Origin: an uncultured Bacteroidota bacterium | GTDB lineage: Bacteria > Bacteroidota > Bacteroidia > B-17B0 > Aurantibacillaceae | NCBI GenBank assembly: GCA_937873155.1 | Contig: CALMVZ010000026.1 | Coordinates: 186,001-250,000, forward strand | Direction of reading: 5' to 3' | Length of the DNA stretch: 64,000 nucleotides | Shown here: positions 45,831-59,708 of the stretch, one piece after another | Layout: the number at the start of each line of letters is the position of its first letter | Position numbering within the stretch: the stretch's first letter is position 1 | Notes under the pieces: model-generated | Seen by the model: the letters and a program-made list of their open reading frames with translations, nothing else | Told to the model about the DNA's origin: nothing | Database searches by the model: none | Made by a program: the position numbers and the translations under genes

Positions 45831-48800
45831 ATGGCCCTCTGTGTGAAAAGACTATTACTGTTTATAACGATTGCATTTTTCTGTTTTACAGGTACTTATG
45901 CGCAAACGTTATATTGGGTTGGTGGCTCGGGTAGCTTTAATGATCCTAATCACTGGTCGTTAGTAAGCGGAGGTAAAAACTCGAATATTGTTCCTAACGC
46001 ATCAACCGATGTGGTTTTTGACGATAAAAGCGGTGAAAATTTTGTGGCTATTGAACTTCCGGTGTATGCATCCGTTAGATCTTTTAAAACTGTGAATGCA
46101 AAAACCAGGATCCGGTTTGAGAATTATACACCTTCATCTTTAAACGTTGCTTCATCTTTCCAATTATCGTCTGTTACTTCATTTGAATTTACCGGCGATC
46201 TTATTTTCCGATCGAAGGATAAGCAACTGAACAAAATTAATTTCAATTTAAATCAGTTAAAATGTAATGTCTTTTTCCATGAAGGGGAGTACAACATTTT
46301 GCCTATATTCATGAATGATAATACCAAGATCTCGTTTAAAGACGGGAACTATCATTTCAAATATTCATCGCTTACTGCAGGAAATGTTTCTGTAAAAGGA
46401 AATAATACCAATATTTCAATAGATACTTCTTATTTTAATATTAAAAATTCATTTATCATTGAGGATGATCCCGGTTTCTCAGCTAACAAATTCGGGTTCT
46501 ACGCACCATTCTCAAATACGAACTCAGTTAAATTAAAAAATTTAAATTTCAGTTCTAACTCAGCGAAATTAGTAGATAATAAGCTGAATGCTGTTTGCCA
46601 GGGATCAATTACTACCTTCCCTGAATGTGCAGGCGCTTGTACAGGTTCGTTCACTTTAACAATTGATGCCACTTGTACAGGTACCTATAACTTAGTTGTT
46701 GGCGGAGATCCAAGTTGTTCTGCAACACAAAATAACATTGCAACGAATAATTTATTGCCAGGTAGTACTTATACCGTTGGCGGACTTTGTTATTGTCCCG
46801 CTGCCCAATATGTAGCTACAGTGTTTGATATTAGTACTTTTATTCCGATCCCATTAACTGTAAACGGATCTGCAACAAGTAATTTTAATTTCCAGCCGCC
46901 TTCTTATGCTTTAACTACATTGGCATCAGTACCACCGAGTTGTAATTTAAGTTGTAACGGATCAATGACCTTAAATGTTGGTGGTGGAACTTTTCCTTAC
47001 ACTATTACTGTCACATCTCCTTTCGGTCCGCCAACGCCTTCTGTTATTAATACGGCGGGGGGATTTACCGTGGGTGGAATGTGTGGAGGAGCGGTTTATT
47101 CTTTTACCATCGTTGATAAAAATGGTTGTTCAGGTGTTCAAACCAAAAGTTTAGCCCCACCACCTCCATTATTAGCTAACGGATCAACACAAAGTATTAC
47201 TTGTTTTGGTGCTTGTACAGGTTCCGCACAAGTTATGCCAACCGGAGGTAATACCGGTGGTTATACTGTGAACTGGAGTAACGGTACAACTCAAACAATT
47301 ACAGCCGGAGGCACTTCTTCGGTAACAAGTTTATGTGCAACGGTCAGTCCTATCACAGCAACGGTTACAGATAGTAAAGGATGTACTGCAATTTATACTT
47401 CACCCGTTCCGCAACCGGCGGCACCCTTAACTGCAACACAATCCCAAACTAATGCAACTTGCGGAGGAACATGTAATGCAACAGCATCAGTCAATGTAAG
47501 CGGCGGAACACCGGGATACAGTTATACATGGACGCCTGCGCCCGGTGGCGGACAAGGAACTCCGCTTGCAACAGCATTGTGCGGATCAAATGTTCCGGCA
47601 CCACCAAATTATACGGTCACGATACAAGATATTAATCAGTGTATTATAACGAGAACATTTGCGATAACGCAACCGGCACCATTAGTGGTTGCTCCAACTT
47701 TTACAAATGCAGCTTGTAACGGAACCTGTAATGGGGCGGCTAATTCAAATCCAAGTGGGGGTAATCCGGCTTATTCATATACATGGGCTACACCGATACC
47801 AAGTACTATCACTACACAAAACGTTACGGGGTTATGCGCCGGTGTATACACTTTAACAGTAAGTGATGCTTCAGCTTGTGTGACTTCATCGATAGTAACA
47901 ATTACTCAGCCTCCTCCTATTACATTGACAATCTCGCAAACAAGTGTTACCTGTAACGGCCAATGTACAGGTTCAGCAACAGCAACAGCAACAGGTGGAG
48001 CGGGCGCATTTACTTATACATGGTCACCATTTGCATTACCAATGATTGGTCAGGGTACGGCGACCGTTAGTAACATGTGCGCAGGACTTTACACTCTGAC
48101 TATTGCGAATGGGATCTGTACTGTTCCGCCACAAACTTTTTCAATAAGTCAACCCTTGCCAATTTTACCTAATGTAACAACAACATCCATAACTTGTAAT
48201 AGCTTATGTAACGGTGTAATCAATTCTGCACCTACAGGAGGAACAGGTCCGTATAATTATACTTTAACCGGAACATCTTTTAATGCAACTATTTCAAACT
48301 CGGCAACAGCTTCCTTTACCAGTTTATGCGCAAGCGCAACGGCCGGAATTTATACCTTAACCGTTGGTGATGTAACCAGCGGCTGTACACGTACGGTAAC
48401 AATTAATCTTGCACAACCTAACGCACTTAACCTGACAGCAACAACAACATCTATTAGTTGCGGCGGCGGATGTAATGCTTCATTAGCAGGAAGCGCTTCA
48501 GGTGGAACGCCTGCCTATTCTTATACGTGGACAACGCCAACAGCAACATTAACTACTCCAACTATCAATGGACAATGTGTCGGAACTTATACATTGCTCG
48601 TAAGGGATGGCAATGGCTGTACCACACAAACTGTTGTTACCATAGCAGCACCTTCTACAATTACTGTAACACTTGCACCAACTTCACCAAGTTGTTTTGG
48701 CAGTTGTAACGGATCTATTACGTCAACTGTAACAGGAGGTACTCCTACATATACTTATAACTGGTCGAGCGGACCAAGCGGTACAGGCGGTCCGACTTTA

Positions 48801-51800
48801 ATTAACGGATTGTGTGCAGGAAATTATTCATTAACTATTACTGACGCGAATGGTTGTCAGCAAATAGGAACGACAACAATAGTACCAACACCGTCTATTG
48901 TTGTTAGTACAACAGTTGTTCCTACAAATTGTGCCGGAAGTTGCGACGGACAAGCTTTTGCTAATGCTTCAGGCGGTACTCCTCCTTTTGTTTATTCATG
49001 GAATACAGTTCCGGTAACAACCAATACGACCGGAATAGCATCTAATTTATGCAGCGGGAATTATGTCGTAACAGTTACTGATGCGAATGGTTGTGTCAGT
49101 AATGCGAACGTTACTGTAGTTTCTCCTCCAGTATTATCAGTAGCAGTAAATAGTGTGGTGCCAAGTTGTAATATTTGTATTGGTGCAGCAACAATAACAC
49201 CGGCCGGAGGTAATCCGGGTTATTCTTATACATGGACGCCTGCCCCTGGTTCAGGTCAGGGTACTCCAACACCGGGTGCATTATGTGTGGGAGTTTATAC
49301 AGTGAATGTTGTAGATACAAAAGGTTGTGCTGCAACCAGAACTATAAATGTTGCACAAAGTGTTGTAGTCAGTATTACAACAACAGGAACTTTATTGACT
49401 TGTAACAATGTTTGTACAGGAATTGCAAATGCAAATCCCACCGGTGGAACACCTGCATACCAATTTACATGGTCGCCTGCCCCTGGTTCAGGTCAAGGTA
49501 CACCAACAGCATCCGGATTATGTCCCGGAAGCTATACTGTAACAGTTCAGGATGCGAGTGGTTGTGTGAATACGAATACAGTAGCATTCGCAAATCCTCC
49601 TGCAATAAATGTTACATCAACAATTACTAATTCTGCCTGTAATGGAAATTGTAATGGCGCGATCAGCGTAACTGCTACCGGTGGAACAGGCGCACTTTCT
49701 TATACATGGACTCCTGCGCCAGGTACAGGACAAGGCACGCCGAATGCAACAGGATTATGTGCGGGTGTTTATACCTTAGATATAAGAGACGTGAATAATT
49801 GTTTAAGCTCACAAACTTTTACGGTAACAGAACCATCAGCACTTAGTGCAACATTTACACCTGTCAGTCCTTCAACTTGCGGAGGGACGAACGGATCGAT
49901 AACTGCAAATGTTAGTGGAGGGGCCGGCGGTTACACTTATACATGGACACCATCAGCGCAAACTACTTCTGTTCTTACAAATGTCGGTGCAGGAACATAT
50001 ACATTAATTGTAAGGGATCTTGCAGGTTGTACGCAATCCATCATTGCAACGTTAAGTGATCCTACAGGACCAACAGTAACTGTTACTTCATCATCGGTTA
50101 CTTGTCCGGGAGCATGTAATGGTTCTGCAACGGTAACTGTTGTCGGAACAAATCCAATTAATATTAACTGGGCGCCTCCAATATCTTCAACCAATTCAGT
50201 TGTGGCAGGGTTATGCCAGGGAACTTTTGCGGTGAATGTCAGTGACGCAACAAATTGTTTGATCAGCCAAACCCTTGCTATTGCACAACCACCAACATTC
50301 AGTTTAAATCCGGTTGTCACAAATCCGAATTGCGGTGTAGCTTGTGATGGAACTATTACAACATCTCCCGCAGGAGGGACTTCTCCATATTCATTCACAT
50401 GGACACCCGGACCTGTCAATTCTCCAACTTTAAGTAATATTTGTGGTGGAAATTACACTGCTAATATTACTGACGGAAATAATTGTTCGTACTCTCAAAC
50501 TTTTGTTGTTACACAACCTTCATCAATTACAGTAACATTCACAAAACGTGATGCGTTATGTAATGGCGTTTGTTCAGGAACTGTAGGAGCAATTGCGTCA
50601 GGTGGAGCCGGAGGTTATACTTATTCATGGACACCCGTTGGTTCTTTCACAGGATCGATTTTAAATAACCTTGTTAATCTATGTGCGAACATTTATACAA
50701 TTACGGTAACCGATGCGAATGGATGTACAGCAACTGCTACTGTTCAAATTGATGAACCCGCCCTGATCAGTGCTTCTTTAAACTTTGCAGATGTATTGTG
50801 TAATTCACAATGCAATGGCAGTGCAACCATAACGGCAGGAGGCGGTACACCTAACTACGGATACTCTTGGACTGGTTCTGCTTCTACAAGTAGCATCGTT
50901 ACAGGTTTATGTGCAGGAAATTATTCCGGCACTGTTACCGACGCGAACGGATGTACACTAACACAAAGTTTTGTTATTAATTCACCTGCAGGAATTGCTG
51001 TAACAGTTACACCAACCGATCCGACTTGTAATGGCGTTTGCAATGGTAGTATCACAACAATTGCTACCGGCGGTACGGGCGTATTAACTTATTCGTGGAT
51101 CGCAACAGGTTCCGGACAAAATCCAACCGGATTATGCGCAGGAAATTATACTGTAATTGTTGAAGATGCCAATGGTTGTACCGGACAAAATGTAACTGTA
51201 TTAACTAACCCGGCTGCAATATTAGCTAACGTATCATTCACAAATCCTTCATGTCCTGGCGCATGTAACGGAACAGTGATAAGTACACCTGCTAACGGTC
51301 AAATACCTTATACCTATACATGGACAACTGCACCGCCTGTAAATACACCGAGTGTGACAGGATTATGTTCGGGTACATATAGTGTTTTTGTGATGGACAA
51401 CAAAGGATGTTTAGATACGCAACAAGTTGTTTTAACCGGTCCGGCTACATTAACGATCAATCCTTCATCCAGTCCGGCATCGTGTGGTGTTTGTAATGGT
51501 TCATTAAGTATAATTCCATTGGGTGGAACACCAAATTATAATTTAACCTGGAATCCTCCTGTGGCTACAGGAACTGCGGGCGTGAGTCTTTGCGCTCAAA
51601 TTTATACTATTACGCTTACCGATGCTAACGGCTGTTCAAGTAACTTTTTCGTTCCTCTAAGTAACTCTAATGGTCCGAGTGGGGCTACAGTAACATTTAC
51701 TGATGTAACTTGTAACGGATTGTGTAACGGTGCTGCTTCAGTAACAAATCCGGTCGGAGGAACTCCTGGCTATACTGTAACTTGGGTAACACCGGTATCA

Positions 51801-54497
51801 CCAACTAATCCTGTTACCGGATTATGTGCCGGAGCTTATACTGCACAAATAACAGACGCAAATAATTGTATCTTGTTCTTATCAGTACCGATAAATGAAC
51901 CGGCGATTTTATTACCAGGTACAACTGTGAATCAACCTTTGTGTAGTGGTAATTGTAATGGAACTATTACCGCATCTCCAACAGGTGGTACTGCCGCGTA
52001 TACTTATAGCTGGAGTACAGGTGCAACTACTTCATCGGTCACAAATATTTGTCCCGGTAATTATACTTTAACTGTAACAGATGCACAAAGTTGTGTCGCC
52101 ACACAAACATTTAATTTACCGGGAACAGTAAATATTACGGCAAGCAGTGTAGCTATAAATAATAATTGCTTCGGAAATTGTAATGGAAGTTTATTGGCAG
52201 CGGGTGTTGCCGGAGGGTTACCGCCGTATACTTATAATTGGAGTGATCCTTTAGGTCAGTCTACTGCCCAGGCATTTAATTTATGTAATGGAAATTATTT
52301 TCTTGTGATCACCGATGCCCAAGGTTGTTTTGATACATTGCGAGGAACTATTACTTCTCCTGCAGCTATCACATTGACTTCTTCAGTAGTTCAACCTTCT
52401 TGCGGGATATGCAACGGTACATCAACAGTAAGTGCTTTAGGCGGAACTGCTCCTTATACTTATACCTGGAGTAGTGGCAGTGCAACAGCTAATGAGGTTA
52501 ATTTGTGTGCCGGTGTTTATATGGTTACAATTACCGATGCTAACGGATGTTTACAGAACATTAACGTCCCTATTAATAACTCAAGTACACTTACCGAAAC
52601 AATTACCTCAACAAATGAAACTTGTTTTGGCCAGTGTAATGGTTCAGCCACTGTAACTGCAAGTGGCGGAACGCCTCCGATCACTTATAATTGGCTTTCA
52701 CCTTCTTCAACATTGCAAACTGTCGGTTCGTTGTGCGGAGGAAGCACATATTTTGTCCAGATGACCGATGCCGCAGGTTGTGTGATAAACGGCTCTGTAA
52801 ATATTTCATCTGCAAGTGATCTTACTGTTACTCCTTTTGTAACGCAACCTCCATGTAGTTCTCCAACCGGTTCTATTTCATTAACTGTAACAGGAGGAGC
52901 CGGTGGTTATGTTTATTTATGGTCGCCCGGCGGAGCAACCACTTCAAGTGTGACCGGACTAGGCGTTGGAACTTATGGTGTACTTGTAACAGACGCAGCA
53001 GGATGTTCGAAAACAATGGTATTCCCGTTAACAAATGCGAATGCGCCGGTATTTAATTTCTCGGCAACTAATGCATTATGTAACGGAACCTGTAATGCTG
53101 TTGCAACATTATCTGTAACTTCAGGAACCGCACCATACACTTTCAACTGGAGTGCCGGAACTATAGCAAGTGGCGCAAATACAAGTACAGCAAGTGGATT
53201 ATGCAGCGGTGTTGTTACTGCAACTGTAACGGCAAGCGACGGATGTTTGTCGGTTAAAAGTTTGACTTTATCACAACCACCTCAATTATTAATGAGCTTA
53301 CCAAATATAAATACACCCGATTGTAACAATCAATGTAACGGATCAATTACATTAATACCAAGTGGTGGTGTGTTACCTTATACTTATACATGGACCCCTG
53401 CTGCAAGTACAAATCCGATCATAAATCTATGTGCCGGTACTTATTCAGGAACAGTTACCGATGCGAATGGTTGCTCGATCTCAACCACACATACATTAAT
53501 AAATCCTCCTGTACTTACTTTATCAGCTAATATTGTTAATTCAACTTGTAACACAGCTAATGATGGTGCTATCACAACAACCGTGAGCGGAGGTTTACCT
53601 GTTTATACTTATACATGGACGGGCCCGGGTACATTTACAAGTACTTCTTCATCATTAACAAATGTCTTATCCGGAACCTATTCATTAACGTTGATTGATT
53701 TTGCTGGCTGCAGAAAAGATACCGCCTTAATTATAGTACCAACGGTTTCAGTAGTTGCTGCTGCCGGCCAGGATTCTTCGTTCTGTCAAAGTGGTACTTA
53801 TTTACTCGATGGTTCATCATCGAGCGGAGGCACAACCTATCAATGGTTCTTATTACCAAGTGCAACTTCATTCACTAATACTTTAGTTACGACAGTAACA
53901 CCGCCTGTAGGTACTTCAACTTATGTTTTAGTAGCTACTAACGGAACCTGTATACACAGAGATACAGTTGAGATCACATCTAACACTCTTCCTGTGGTAG
54001 ATGCCGGTCCGAACTATACTATAACAATATTCACTTCAACAGTTATCGGAGGTAGTCCAACCAGTGCAACAGGCGTTACTTATACATGGATCCCGTCAAA
54101 CACATTAGATAACGGAACGGTACCAAATCCGACTGCATCCAATACGGTGAACACATCTTATACTGTAATGGTAACTGATGCGAATGGTTGCGTTGGTTCA
54201 GATACAATGCATGTACATATCTTCCCTGAAATATTCATACCAAACGGATTCAGTAATAATGCGGATGGTAAGAACGATTTCTGGGTGATCGATAATATCC
54301 AGCAATTCCCGAATTGTGTTGTTGAGATATATAACCGTTGGGGTGAGATGTTATTCAGATCGGAAGGATATACCACGCCATGGGATGGTAAATACAAGAA
54401 CAAGGACCTGCCTGTAGGCACCTATTATTATATAATTGATCTGCATCACGAGAACTTCCCTAAAGCATATACAGGGCCATTAACTATATTCAGATAA
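45831..54497 (+). CDS. Giant SprB-repeat adhesin with T9SS type B sorting domain
   Basis: 2888 residues. Signal peptide (LLLFITIAFFCFTGTYAQ), then an N-terminal domain with LYWVGGSGSFNDPNHWS (about 27-355). Next come about 29 SprB-type repeats of roughly 78 residues (about 360-2642), each like CNGxCNG, GGTPxYTYTW, GLCAGxYT, VTDANGC. Two Ig/PKD-like domains follow (about 2643-2800), then the type B CTD (IPNGFSNNADGKNDFWVID, NRWGEMLFRS, GTYYYIID). Family knowledge: F. johnsoniae SprB is the gliding adhesin moved along the cell by the gliding machinery. SprF-type partners help it exit, and the next gene is such a partner one base away. Repeats 13, 26 and 29 lack cysteines 2 and 3. Confidence 0.93.
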   Translation: MALCVKRLLLFITIAFFCFTGTYAQTLYWVGGSGSFNDPNHWSLVSGGKNSNIVPNASTDVVFDDKSGENFVAIELPVYASVRSFKTVNAKTRIRFENYTPSSLNVASSFQLSSVTSFEFTGDLIFRSKDKQLNKINFNLNQLKCNVFFHEGEYNILPIFMNDNTKISFKDGNYHFKYSSLTAGNVSVKGNNTNISIDTSYFNIKNSFIIEDDPGFSANKFGFYAPFSNTNSVKLKNLNFSSNSAKLVDNKLNAVCQGSITTFPECAGACTGSFTLTIDATCTGTYNLVVGGDPSCSATQNNIATNNLLPGSTYTVGGLCYCPAAQYVATVFDISTFIPIPLTVNGSATSNFNFQPPSYALTTLASVPPSCNLSCNGSMTLNVGGGTFPYTITVTSPFGPPTPSVINTAGGFTVGGMCGGAVYSFTIVDKNGCSGVQTKSLAPPPPLLANGSTQSITCFGACTGSAQVMPTGGNTGGYTVNWSNGTTQTITAGGTSSVTSLCATVSPITATVTDSKGCTAIYTSPVPQPAAPLTATQSQTNATCGGTCNATASVNVSGGTPGYSYTWTPAPGGGQGTPLATALCGSNVPAPPNYTVTIQDINQCIITRTFAITQPAPLVVAPTFTNAACNGTCNGAANSNPSGGNPAYSYTWATPIPSTITTQNVTGLCAGVYTLTVSDASACVTSSIVTITQPPPITLTISQTSVTCNGQCTGSATATATGGAGAFTYTWSPFALPMIGQGTATVSNMCAGLYTLTIANGICTVPPQTFSISQPLPILPNVTTTSITCNSLCNGVINSAPTGGTGPYNYTLTGTSFNATISNSATASFTSLCASATAGIYTLTVGDVTSGCTRTVTINLAQPNALNLTATTTSISCGGGCNASLAGSASGGTPAYSYTWTTPTATLTTPTINGQCVGTYTLLVRDGNGCTTQTVVTIAAPSTITVTLAPTSPSCFGSCNGSITSTVTGGTPTYTYNWSSGPSGTGGPTLINGLCAGNYSLTITDANGCQQIGTTTIVPTPSIVVSTTVVPTNCAGSCDGQAFANASGGTPPFVYSWNTVPVTTNTTGIASNLCSGNYVVTVTDANGCVSNANVTVVSPPVLSVAVNSVVPSCNICIGAATITPAGGNPGYSYTWTPAPGSGQGTPTPGALCVGVYTVNVVDTKGCAATRTINVAQSVVVSITTTGTLLTCNNVCTGIANANPTGGTPAYQFTWSPAPGSGQGTPTASGLCPGSYTVTVQDASGCVNTNTVAFANPPAINVTSTITNSACNGNCNGAISVTATGGTGALSYTWTPAPGTGQGTPNATGLCAGVYTLDIRDVNNCLSSQTFTVTEPSALSATFTPVSPSTCGGTNGSITANVSGGAGGYTYTWTPSAQTTSVLTNVGAGTYTLIVRDLAGCTQSIIATLSDPTGPTVTVTSSSVTCPGACNGSATVTVVGTNPININWAPPISSTNSVVAGLCQGTFAVNVSDATNCLISQTLAIAQPPTFSLNPVVTNPNCGVACDGTITTSPAGGTSPYSFTWTPGPVNSPTLSNICGGNYTANITDGNNCSYSQTFVVTQPSSITVTFTKRDALCNGVCSGTVGAIASGGAGGYTYSWTPVGSFTGSILNNLVNLCANIYTITVTDANGCTATATVQIDEPALISASLNFADVLCNSQCNGSATITAGGGTPNYGYSWTGSASTSSIVTGLCAGNYSGTVTDANGCTLTQSFVINSPAGIAVTVTPTDPTCNGVCNGSITTIATGGTGVLTYSWIATGSGQNPTGLCAGNYTVIVEDANGCTGQNVTVLTNPAAILANVSFTNPSCPGACNGTVISTPANGQIPYTYTWTTAPPVNTPSVTGLCSGTYSVFVMDNKGCLDTQQVVLTGPATLTINPSSSPASCGVCNGSLSIIPLGGTPNYNLTWNPPVATGTAGVSLCAQIYTITLTDANGCSSNFFVPLSNSNGPSGATVTFTDVTCNGLCNGAASVTNPVGGTPGYTVTWVTPVSPTNPVTGLCAGAYTAQITDANNCILFLSVPINEPAILLPGTTVNQPLCSGNCNGTITASPTGGTAAYTYSWSTGATTSSVTNICPGNYTLTVTDAQSCVATQTFNLPGTVNITASSVAINNNCFGNCNGSLLAAGVAGGLPPYTYNWSDPLGQSTAQAFNLCNGNYFLVITDAQGCFDTLRGTITSPAAITLTSSVVQPSCGICNGTSTVSALGGTAPYTYTWSSGSATANEVNLCAGVYMVTITDANGCLQNINVPINNSSTLTETITSTNETCFGQCNGSATVTASGGTPPITYNWLSPSSTLQTVGSLCGGSTYFVQMTDAAGCVINGSVNISSASDLTVTPFVTQPPCSSPTGSISLTVTGGAGGYVYLWSPGGATTSSVTGLGVGTYGVLVTDAAGCSKTMVFPLTNANAPVFNFSATNALCNGTCNAVATLSVTSGTAPYTFNWSAGTIASGANTSTASGLCSGVVTATVTASDGCLSVKSLTLSQPPQLLMSLPNINTPDCNNQCNGSITLIPSGGVLPYTYTWTPAASTNPIINLCAGTYSGTVTDANGCSISTTHTLINPPVLTLSANIVNSTCNTANDGAITTTVSGGLPVYTYTWTGPGTFTSTSSSLTNVLSGTYSLTLIDFAGCRKDTALIIVPTVSVVAAAGQDSSFCQSGTYLLDGSSSSGGTTYQWFLLPSATSFTNTLVTTVTPPVGTSTYVLVATNGTCIHRDTVEITSNTLPVVDAGPNYTITIFTSTVIGGSPTSATGVTYTWIPSNTLDNGTVPNPTASNTVNTSYTVMVTDANGCVGSDTMHVHIFPEIFIPNGFSNNADGKNDFWVIDNIQQFPNCVVEIYNRWGEMLFRSEGYTTPWDGKYKNKDLPVGTYYYIIDLHHENFPKAYTGPLTIFR
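46908..53757 (+). repeat. SprB-type repeat array, about 29 units of ~78 codons
   Basis: Tandem protein repeats of 73-88 residues. Neighbouring units share some DNA: a 21-bp identity starting GCCTGCCCCTGG lies at 49238-49258 and 49475-49495, exactly 237 bases (79 codons) apart, showing recent unit duplication. Most other units have drifted at DNA level while keeping the four-Cys pattern. Confidence 0.85.
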
Positions 54498-54498
54498 G

Positions 54499-55413
54499 AT
54501 GAAAAAGATACTTATACTCATATTTGGCATAATGGTATTGGCTGATGTAAAAGCACAACAGCTTCCGCAATACACACAGTATATGCTTAACGAATTTGCA
54601 ATTAATCCGGCTGTTGCAGGTAAAGAAGAATTTGCGGATGTGCGTTCAAATAACCGTTATCAATGGATAGGAATTACAGATGCTCCGAGAACTTATATAT
54701 TAACTGTGAATGGCCCGCTTAAAATAAAGAACATGGGATTGGGCATGCATTTGTTCACGGATATAGTTGGCCCCACAAGAAGAGTCGGTTTGAATTTCTC
54801 GTACGCATACCATATTAAGCTGAACGAAGAAGTAAAACTATCATTAGGTTTGACCGCTGGTATCTTGCAATGGGGGATCGATGGCCATAAACTGATCTTG
54901 CATGATGCGGGAGATGATAATTTACTTACCCAATATCAAACTGTTTATGTACCTGATTTTGGTGCCGGTATTTTAGTACATCATAAAAAATGGTATTTCG
55001 GCATAGCTGTTCCGCAGATGTATCAAAGCAGGATCAATCTGTATCCGGGATCGGACAACAGTTCAACTTTGGTGACACATTTTAATGTTAATGCTGCTTA
55101 TAAGTTCGATCTGGGTGAGGATTTTAAAGTTGAACCATCCTTCTTAGTAAAATATGCAACTCCTGCGCCTTTTAAATTAGACGTTGGCGCCCGTGTTATT
55201 TATAAAGAACAAATTTGGTTAGGTGGTGCATACCGTCATAATGATGCTTATACCGCATTACTTGGATTTATGTATAAGAATTATTTAATGATCGGTTATT
55301 CTTACGATTTCCCGACTACCAATATCCGTAAATACAGTTCCGGCACTCACGAAATCATGCTGGGCTTGAGATTTTCGCGTAAACAACACCGCAATTGGGT
55401 TACCGAGCAGTAA
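54499..55413 (+). CDS. PorP/SprF-family T9SS outer-membrane partner protein
   Basis: 304 residues with a signal peptide (MKKILILIFGIMVLADVKAQ) and the family opening QLPQYTQYMLNEFAINPAVAG, then a beta-barrel pattern (LGLTAGILQWGIDGHKLIL, PDFGAGILVHHKKWYFGIAV, LMIGYSYDFPTTNIRKYSS, HEIMLGLRF). PorP/SprF proteins hold and export specific T9SS type B cargo, and are usually encoded next to it. This one begins one base after the adhesin's stop, so it is almost certainly the adhesin's dedicated partner. Confidence 0.95.
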   Translation: MKKILILIFGIMVLADVKAQQLPQYTQYMLNEFAINPAVAGKEEFADVRSNNRYQWIGITDAPRTYILTVNGPLKIKNMGLGMHLFTDIVGPTRRVGLNFSYAYHIKLNEEVKLSLGLTAGILQWGIDGHKLILHDAGDDNLLTQYQTVYVPDFGAGILVHHKKWYFGIAVPQMYQSRINLYPGSDNSSTLVTHFNVNAAYKFDLGEDFKVEPSFLVKYATPAPFKLDVGARVIYKEQIWLGGAYRHNDAYTALLGFMYKNYLMIGYSYDFPTTNIRKYSSGTHEIMLGLRFSRKQHRNWVTEQ

Positions 55414-58694: not shown

Positions 58695-59708
58695 CTACGG
58701 CCTATACTTACTTTTACTTAAGATCTTCAGGGCATCTTTTTCAGCCATTAATTGTTCCAGGGTCACAGATTCATTATTCTTCATGTAACTTCGTACAACC
58801 TGCCAGCCTATCCACATCGCAATACGGGGCGGGCATTCTTTACTGATCGCACCGGTGTACGGACCATCATTTGTCAGCTCAATAACAGTCTTCATATTGT
58901 TATCATATAAACGGTTGTTGGCAGCCATGTAACCCCATAGGTTTTTTTCGAACTCTTTACAATAATTCATTTGAGCTGTTGAATAGCCTATTTTAATGCT
59001 ATCATGTATATCAGGCAAGAGTGCATCGCAAGCATAGAATATACGTCCGAACAGGATCATATTATTTAAAACATTGTTTATTGAGTCGGTGTTATCAAAT
59101 TCGCTGATCAGCCATCCGCGTACCATGTCCGGAACCATGTATTCTTTATTTAATAGCCGTACCTGGTAATGGGGCCACTGGAGCATTTTATAGAAAGGAT
59201 GCTCTTTACCTAAATACATGTCCAAACTCACAGCCATCACCGAATCCGGATACGCGAAATTATAATCGAATCCGCTCATGCACGTGGTAAAATGTTTCGG
59301 TAGTTTACGTTTCGGAAAATGAAATTTAAAGCGTTTCATGGCATCGGTCATGCCGTTCTCAAGATCCTCTATATCCTTATCCGAAATTGTTTTTTGTGTT
59401 TCAAGGTAAGCATCGTGCATGTCCTTATTAGTAACGAAAGCCAAAACGCTGTTCGTATCCTCGGGATTACCCCTTCCTTTAATAGTATTCACGAACATAT
59501 AATAAAATGCACCGTATTTTTTTTCAATGGCGGGTAGTTTAGATGTTATATTATTCCCATTTATAGCAAAGAATTCTTTTTCGAACCTGTCGAATTTAAC
59601 AGTTGGAACATTGATATCTGTTACATCAACATCCAGCTTATCATGTGTGCAGGCCGCTAAAAGAGCTGAGATAAACACGGTTATAAACAACTTATTAAGA
59701 TGCTTCAT
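58695..59708 (-). CDS. gldB: Gliding motility lipoprotein GldB
   Basis: 337 residues. The signal MKHLNKLFITVFISALLAAC has the lipobox Cys; GldB is an essential gliding lipoprotein in Flavobacteria. Family segments: VPTVKFDRFEKEFFAIN, YYMFVNTIKGRGN, MSGFDYNFAYPDSVMAVSLD and DMVRGWLISEFDNTDSI. It is divergent from the outer-membrane barrel gene at 59757; the 48-base gap holds overlapping -7 boxes for both. Confidence 0.93.
   Translation of the reverse strand: MKHLNKLFITVFISALLAACTHDKLDVDVTDINVPTVKFDRFEKEFFAINGNNITSKLPAIEKKYGAFYYMFVNTIKGRGNPEDTNSVLAFVTNKDMHDAYLETQKTISDKDIEDLENGMTDAMKRFKFHFPKRKLPKHFTTCMSGFDYNFAYPDSVMAVSLDMYLGKEHPFYKMLQWPHYQVRLLNKEYMVPDMVRGWLISEFDNTDSINNVLNNMILFGRIFYACDALLPDIHDSIKIGYSTAQMNYCKEFEKNLWGYMAANNRLYDNNMKTVIELTNDGPYTGAISKECPPRIAMWIGWQVVRSYMKNNESVTLEQLMAEKDALKILSKSKYRP

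Follow-up and report, generated by a model that had tools for sequence, protein, structure and literature searches.

How are the cysteines of a giant bacterial surface protein joined, and do they brace single repeats or tie neighbouring ones together? The question is raised by one cysteine-rich adhesin gene of the window, the whole 64,000-nucleotide stretch of DNA analysed (Table 1). The encoded protein is organized into a signal peptide, an N-terminal region without any Pfam or NCBIfam match in profile searches, about 30 SprB repeats, two further Ig-like domains and a type B sorting domain. The SprB model PF13573 reaches its score over the adhesin against a cut-off of 28 bits, with 18 tandem stretches individually above that cut-off, and the CHU_C/TIGR04131 C-terminal sorting domain together with a signal peptide (read by eye) marks the protein as a type B substrate of the type IX secretion system (T9SS). 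A preliminary description of this DNA had counted about 29 repeats, nearly all with four cysteines (C1–C4), between 46908 and 53757. That number is borne out (29 repeats, R01–R29, with C1 running from aa 371 to 2573), but the array extends beyond it on both sides, with one divergent repeat (R00) preceding and two domains (D30 and D31) following. D30 scores 26.4 bits against PF19081, slightly below the cut-off of 27.3.

The R00 region was matched by the repeat profile in the orthologues L013, L014, L016, L018, L019 and L020, and extra cysteines like those of R00 are visible in orthologues. In the window, R00 has four of them (aa 256, 282, 296 and 322), which probably form two further disulfides in this cap domain. 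Over all 32 domains there are 31 C1 and 31 C4, the first domain lacking C4 and the last lacking C1. Of the 124 cysteines of the protein, 62 + 54 are thereby assigned to C1/C4 and C2/C3, and eight are left over: aa 4 and 18 (signal peptide), aa 145, the four in R00 and aa 2829.

Table 1. Features of the adhesin locus, with window coordinates, strand, and matches, model scores or cysteine positions.
Feature	Position	Strand	Matches, scores or cysteines
SprB-repeat, type B T9SS surface protein, 2888 aa, 124 Cys	45831..54497	+	PF13573 472.5 bits; CHU_C PF13585 87.3 bits; TIGR04131 61 bits
R00, divergent first Ig-like repeat, aa ~253-345 (approximate boundaries)	46587..46865	+	C1 46626, C2 46638, C3 46788; without C4
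Repeats R01-R29	46902..53756	+	C1 A-B loop, C2 strand B start, C3 E-F turn, C4 F-G turn; strand places from R12-R15 model
R12-R15, modelled four-repeat segment, 307 aa	49599..50519	+	AlphaFold2, mean pLDDT 95.5, pTM 0.70
R13, two-Cys repeat	49839..50063	+	C1 49878, C4 50028; without C2 and C3
R26, two-Cys repeat	52815..53039	+	C1 52854, C4 53004; without C2 and C3
R29, two-Cys repeat	53508..53756	+	C1 53547, C4 53709; without C2 and C3
D30, Ig_7-like domain (approximate boundaries)	53757..53987	+	C1 53784 in A-B loop, C4 53949 in F-G turn (C-terminal model)
D31, last Ig-like domain before sorting signal (approximate boundaries)	53988..54227	+	C4 54189 in F-G turn; A-B loop without Cys
Type B T9SS C-terminal sorting domain (CHU_C)	54228..54494	+	one Cys, aa 2829
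PorP/SprF-family carrier	54499..55413	+	TIGR03519 290.7 bits, cut-off 90.55; no Cys
Gliding motility lipoprotein GldB gene	58695-59708	-	TIGR03514 221.7 bits, cut-off 190

Within the array, 26 of the 29 repeats carry C1–C4, and in the remaining three (R13, R26 and R29) C2 and C3 are both missing while C1 and C4 are kept, exactly as first noticed; no repeat has only one of C2 and C3 (0/29). R13 reads CGGTNGS with NVGAGTY, R26 CSSPTGS with GLGVGTY, and R29 CNTANDG with NVLSGTY. Three C2 losses and three C3 losses would fall on the same three of 29 repeats by chance with a probability of 1/3654 (2.7e-4). The CNGxCNG spacing ascribed to C1 and C2 applies to most repeats but fails in R10, R20 and R24, where the two are spaced as CxxC instead of CxxxC. 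The three two-Cys repeats share 41, 39 and 32% pairwise identity against a mean of 35% over all pairs, and are not a close subfamily. Their array positions are the same in the four nearest orthologues (L009, L010, L011 and L012), indicating inheritance within the species and not three fresh events; this species alone is therefore weak evidence of repeated co-loss.

Co-occurrence of C2 and C3 was accordingly read across relatives. SprB matches occur in 260 of the 296 genomes of the class searched. Every cysteine was masked before profile building and search to avoid bias, and cysteines were read back afterwards. With 80 of 90 related loci kept, 1474 profile matches yielded 1283 full and 1240 unique repeats from the window and its relatives, including short overlapping pieces of other arrays of the same genome (L001–L008), which lie outside the second set. 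That second set used wider cysteine zones and was extended by 40 regions of 39 genomes in the class, chosen by hand, not at random, among top-scoring sites where the open frames are long; its 2801 aligned matches (2692 in the E-value table) gave 2689 with both halves and 2653 unique domains. The 3-kb pieces L108–L137 and the carriers L089–L107 lie outside both repeat sets.

Among the 1240 unique repeats, 520 have both C2 and C3, 705 have neither, 15 were called C2-only and none C3-only. On inspection by eye, none of the 15 apparent exceptions is real: in 14 rows (L033, a poor match, among them) the profile had put the single cysteine of a shortened loop into the C2 column, and in the other (L022) C3 is shifted by an insertion and not truly absent. 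Across these homologues, C2 and C3 occur together or not at all. The 2653-domain set comprises 1669 two-Cys (1,0,1) and 779 four-Cys (2,1,1) domains, the remainder showing other patterns, and contained 32 candidates for C2/C3 discordance. Reading by eye accepted about six: five with a C2-like cysteine without C3 (CxxC twice in L150 and once each in L159 and L036; CC in L154) and one, L169, with a canonical C3 without C2, where another cysteine is present in the C–E loop. Five more have a cysteine close to, but off, the C3 column (L032, L037, L039, L160 at 1611, and L161), four are first domains whose C3 landed in the C4 zone (L014, L016, L019 and L026), and five are incomplete or wrongly placed alignments (L139 twice, L147, L149 and L166). 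The other 12 are repeats that have lost C1 and keep C2 and C3 (L035 twice, L177, L160 three times, and L144, L168 and L148 twice each), which makes the two cysteine pairs independent of each other.

In a mean-field coupling analysis, C2–C3 (columns 18 and 53) ranks first of 2701 column pairs, at 12.9 against 5.4 for the next. The C2–C3 bond predicted in the preliminary description is thus strongly supported, by co-occurrence in hundreds of repeats and by the top-ranked covariation. Of 115 open reading frames with at least five domains, 55 mix four-Cys and two-Cys domains, 60 are without any four-Cys domain, and none is entirely four-Cys. Two-Cys domains outnumber four-Cys domains in the wide set, so C2–C3 may have been gained as an extra staple by four-Cys repeats and not lost from the others. 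A few distant repeats carry CxxC variants of the A–B loop without C3, reading CNGCTDG, CPTCTDG and CIGCKDG (L150, L159 and L036); these perhaps form a different local bond.

The second predicted bond, C1–C4, had been placed inside one repeat, which was also the starting assumption of our analysis and was dropped after a scan of cysteine losses. The two cysteines do pair, but C1 of domain n goes with C4 of domain n+1. Over 2312 contiguous domain pairs, the comparison of C1(n) with C4(n) gave both present in 2237, C4 alone lost in 41, C1 alone lost in 34 and both lost in none, against 2275, 3, 23 and 11, respectively, for C1(n) with C4(n+1). When array ends were removed, double losses at offsets k from −4 to +4 numbered 0, 1, 0, 2, 0, 11, 0, 2 and 0; the 11 at k = +1 compare with 0.20 expected (p = 3e-19), whereas within the array interior 41 losses at k = 0 are single and none is double. 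Six proteins account for the 11 double losses, which form seven clusters at 60% and four at 45% identity.

Most of the remaining C1 losses are accompanied by a cysteine elsewhere at the joint. Of the 34 contiguous pairs in which C1(n) is lost, 11 also lack C4(n+1) and 18, from eight proteins, have a cysteine in the linker, 12–14 residues beyond C4(n). A cysteine at +11 to +15 after C4(n) is found in 18/34 pairs with C1(n) lost, against 5/2278 with C1(n) kept. Residual mismatches are L161, which keeps C1(n) while C4(n+1) is lost, and L144 and L022, in which C1(n) is absent and C4(n+1) kept with no counted linker cysteine; L022 has a cysteine a few residues upstream. In three of the 34 pairs without C1(n), C1 seems to have been misplaced (L037 at 502, L148 at 2309 and L062 at 1503), and where C4(n+1) is missing but C1(n) present, two of the three pairs (L061 and L087) have C4 a few residues later; all were kept in the counts. 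As controls, the linker cysteine also accompanies loss of C1(n+1) in 13/56 pairs, six of these 13 being a C1(n+1) displaced just outside its zone and four belonging to one repetitive array, L149, and C1 loss is high in domains without a detected predecessor (67/367), of which 59, with three more, are isolated matches. Little can be learned from the 153 isolated matches, of which 59 lack C1 alone, 5 lack C4 alone and 3 lack both.

The L149 array itself (frame from codon 401, aa ~217–640) consists of repeats without C1 that have cysteines in strand F (TYCVTITDANGC), past the start of strand G (TASDC) and in the linker (PPPC). Judged by its sequence, this is a third cysteine layout in the same fold.

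Bonding of C1(n) to C4(n+1) also bears on the array ends, where the first domain would need no C4 and the last no C1. The window array fits this: of the two cysteines R00 carries C1 alone and D31 C4 alone, and every domain between has both. In the detected runs, many of whose ends mark only undetected neighbours, C4 is lost in 28/214 first, 1/213 last and 13/2073 interior domains, and C1 in 5/214 first, 27/213 last and 28/2073 interior domains. The domain that directly precedes the sorting signal has C4, and lacks any cysteine 48–69 residues ahead of C4, in 33/33 open reading frames placed by a text motif, which come mainly from two clades, with 45 frames unplaced and uncounted. Exceptions near that zone are a cysteine 47 residues before C4 in L029 and 42 residues before it in L013 and L019.

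The predicted fold agrees with this arrangement. AlphaFold2, using 78 rows from 201 four-repeat runs found, predicted R12–R15 as tandem Ig-like beta-sandwich repeats arranged end to end (Table 1), with strands that we name A, B, C, E, F and G. In a model of the C-terminal part (pLDDT 89.3, 21 rows), D30 and D31 are strand-rich with C4 in the F–G turn. Most couplings between strands A and G are in parallel register (2–69, 7–73, 9–73, 12–75 and 15–78; edge exceptions 1–78 and 1–75), so that A and G end at the same level, where C1 lies, and also start at the same level, where C4 lies. By this register, C1 and C4 of one domain would lie at opposite domain ends, about eight strand residues apart, and model and covariation together place C1(n) so as to face C4(n+1). 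The C1(n)–C4(n+1) coupling ranks second of 6084 between neighbours and is the strongest that does not join like columns; C1–C4 inside one domain ranks only 679th of 2701. With the cysteine columns left out, 16 of the 50 strongest neighbour couplings still connect the lower end of domain n with the upper end of domain n+1, against 2.7 expected and 4, 3 and 5 such couplings in the reverse, n+2 and n+3 controls. In the smaller first set, also without cysteine columns, the end-to-end count was hardly higher than its distance-two control (8 vs 6 of 50).

The adhesin is very probably a rod stapled at 31 joints, with C2–C3 pinning the C1-bearing loop in 26 repeats. This reading builds on the observed cysteine pattern, co-loss, covariation and domain order, and extrapolates from them to oxidation in the cell and to a mechanical role in stiffness. 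The picture of separate, disulfide-stapled beta units in the preliminary description gives way to a chain whose joints are stapled, as C1(n) goes with C4(n+1). The rod would consist of 32 Ig-like domains (R00, R01–R29, D30 and D31) on a type IX secretion anchor. C1 in the A–B loop at the lower (C-terminal) end of each domain would meet C4 in the F–G turn at the upper (N-terminal) end of the next and form an interdomain disulfide, so that all 31 joints would be stapled. C1 of R00 is predicted to bond C4 of R01 (47127); within the modelled segment the predicted staples are C1(R12)–C4(R13), C1(R13)–C4(R14) and C1(R14)–C4(R15); and at the far end C1 of R29 would bond C4 of D30 (53949), and C1 of D30 (53784) C4 of D31 (54189). 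C2 in the A–B loop and C3 in the E–F turn, both at the lower end, would add an optional intradomain disulfide in 26/29 repeats, and probably in R00 too, which would pin the loop bearing C1. The resulting stiff, unfolding-resistant stalk would keep the N-terminal region away from the cell. If this is true, a simple sequence rule gives the disulfide map of a very widespread bacterial surface protein family, explains why the first and last domains differ, and predicts stiff stalks resistant to protease and force.

The joints might instead hold free thiols or metal ligands, the cysteines being kept paired for that purpose and no covalent bond being formed. In favour of this account, no known periplasmic thiol oxidase was found: DsbA, DsbB, VKOR and Thioredoxin_4 have no match in the genome, which is rated 100% complete, and this counts against easy oxidation. 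In a survey of the class, VKOR occurs in 4/99 genomes, and the DsbA family, its role aside, in 56/99. Two cysteines per joint are, however, few for a metal site, as far as cysteines alone are considered as ligands. Disulfides in the periplasm, those of SprF and PorG with GldK, have moreover been demonstrated experimentally in F. johnsoniae (PMC12635249), and the adhesin is exported out of the cell; on balance we regard unbonded cysteines as unlikely.

The genome without those oxidase matches still encodes a surface protein with more than 100 cysteines. For the class as a whole, we see an even chance that giant adhesins of the SprB/GhpA type are rods stapled C1(n)–C4(n+1) at every joint, in which the add-on C2–C3 would tune stiffness domain by domain and an unrecognised oxidant, acting during export or on the cell surface, would form dozens of bonds in each molecule without known Dsb or VKOR enzymes, in this genome at least. 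With the known enzymes not found here, the question arises of what oxidises about 60 bonds per molecule, as does that of whether the protein is folded and stapled before it passes the T9SS channel or afterwards.

Two other bond maps are less probable still. A backward staple, in which C4(n) bonds C1(n+1) and strands G(n) and A(n+1) form a hairpin, would span only 25 residues; 12 pairs lose both of these cysteines (p = 5.5e-11), and their coupling (67–14) ranks 11th of 6084. Some of the k = +1 double losses alternate along the array and so also fit this map. Nine of its 12 double losses, however, come from the alternating arrays L174 and L175, one from L154 and two from the look-alike pair L168/L148, and it leaves 73 single-loss pairs (44 + 29) against 26 for C1(n)–C4(n+1), 18 of those 26 with a linker cysteine. 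No antiparallel G(n)–A(n+1) coupling is seen, the best ranking 477th of 6084. The flanks of the 11 double losses at k = +1 are both intact in four cases, one intact in four and none in three, and the four with both intact speak against a backward staple, which would leave these flanks unpaired in L035 (two places), L177 and L160; they fit C1(n)–C4(n+1) only. We consider the backward map highly unlikely. No better chance is given to a map with both bonds (C2–C3 and C1–C4) inside each repeat as a separately stapled unit, for although C1 and C4 occur together in nearly every repeat, R13, R26 and R29 keep both and three isolated domains lack both, interior repeats lose them singly and never together, the first and last domains keep one alone in the window and in orthologues, and the parallel A and G strands set the two at opposite domain ends.

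In the L174 and L175 arrays, C1 and C4 are lost alternately along the chain, and with C1(n)–C4(n+1) staples every second joint would be unstapled.

Tandem Ig/FnIII rods (titin I-band, contactins and fibronectin) resemble the window adhesin in fold and end-to-end arrangement (Foldseek, VIA). Disulfides in such rods, where present, are mostly intradomain, in contrast to the conserved pair predicted to join neighbours here. The open-licence PMC literature searched yielded no precedent for disulfide bonding in SprB repeats or from one tandem Ig-like adhesin domain to the next. Among the structural matches listed, the best for the R12–R15 model is the Aureispira grappling hook protein GhpA (cryo-EM entries 9flu, 9flw, 9g8b, 9fls and others; Foldseek E 8.7e-10), with VIA Z scores of 11.1–11.7 over 283–292 residues at an rmsd of 13.8–15.4 and a profile match of the repeats at E 8.1e-14. 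In the few GhpA domains displayed, a C1-like cysteine (ICEGT, ICSNE, ICEGE) and a C4-like cysteine (DGC, QGC, NGC) recur as in the window repeats; GhpA is longer (5898 aa vs 2888) and lacks the C2–C3 pair in the stretch seen. The GhpA models released in 2024 may already hold the answer on joint disulfides, and the original GhpA paper, reportedly that of Lien et al. 2024, may already show the joints. GhpA forms a heptamer (PMC13319060); the likeness of the window adhesin to it concerns the fold and cysteines of its repeats.

The name SprB suits the window protein as an SprB-repeat, type B T9SS protein but is doubtful in the sense of a gliding adhesin, as the adjoining carrier has no cysteine. 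Likeness to the F. johnsoniae SprB system extends to the repeat family (PF13573), the type B sorting domain and a PorP/SprF-type carrier gene directly downstream. The adhesin stop and carrier start lie one base apart, and the carrier probably serves the adjoining adhesin. Compared at family level, the window system differs in the extra C2–C3 pair of most repeats and in a carrier without a Cys-X-Cys tail. In F. johnsoniae, the Cys-X-Cys motif of the SprF tail is needed for gliding (PMC12635249). A gliding SprB in the strict sense would have a carrier with such a C-terminal tail, bonding to GldK; with no cysteine at all in the window carrier, the adhesin is not expected to be attached to a gliding track in the F. 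johnsoniae manner. The genome search found 19 PorP/SprF proteins, and C-X-C is absent from the last 60 residues of every one. Static type B adhesins exist (PMC12618676), and the window protein is more plausibly a static surface adhesin than a gliding one.

Seven of the 19 PorP/SprF proteins of the genome have a cysteine four or five residues from the C-terminus (for example SCPKF and NCPRL). They recall PorG of P. gingivalis, which has a single cysteine (PMC12635249), and by analogy might ride on a track. The gliding gene for GldB lies near a carrier that is itself without the gliding cysteine motif.
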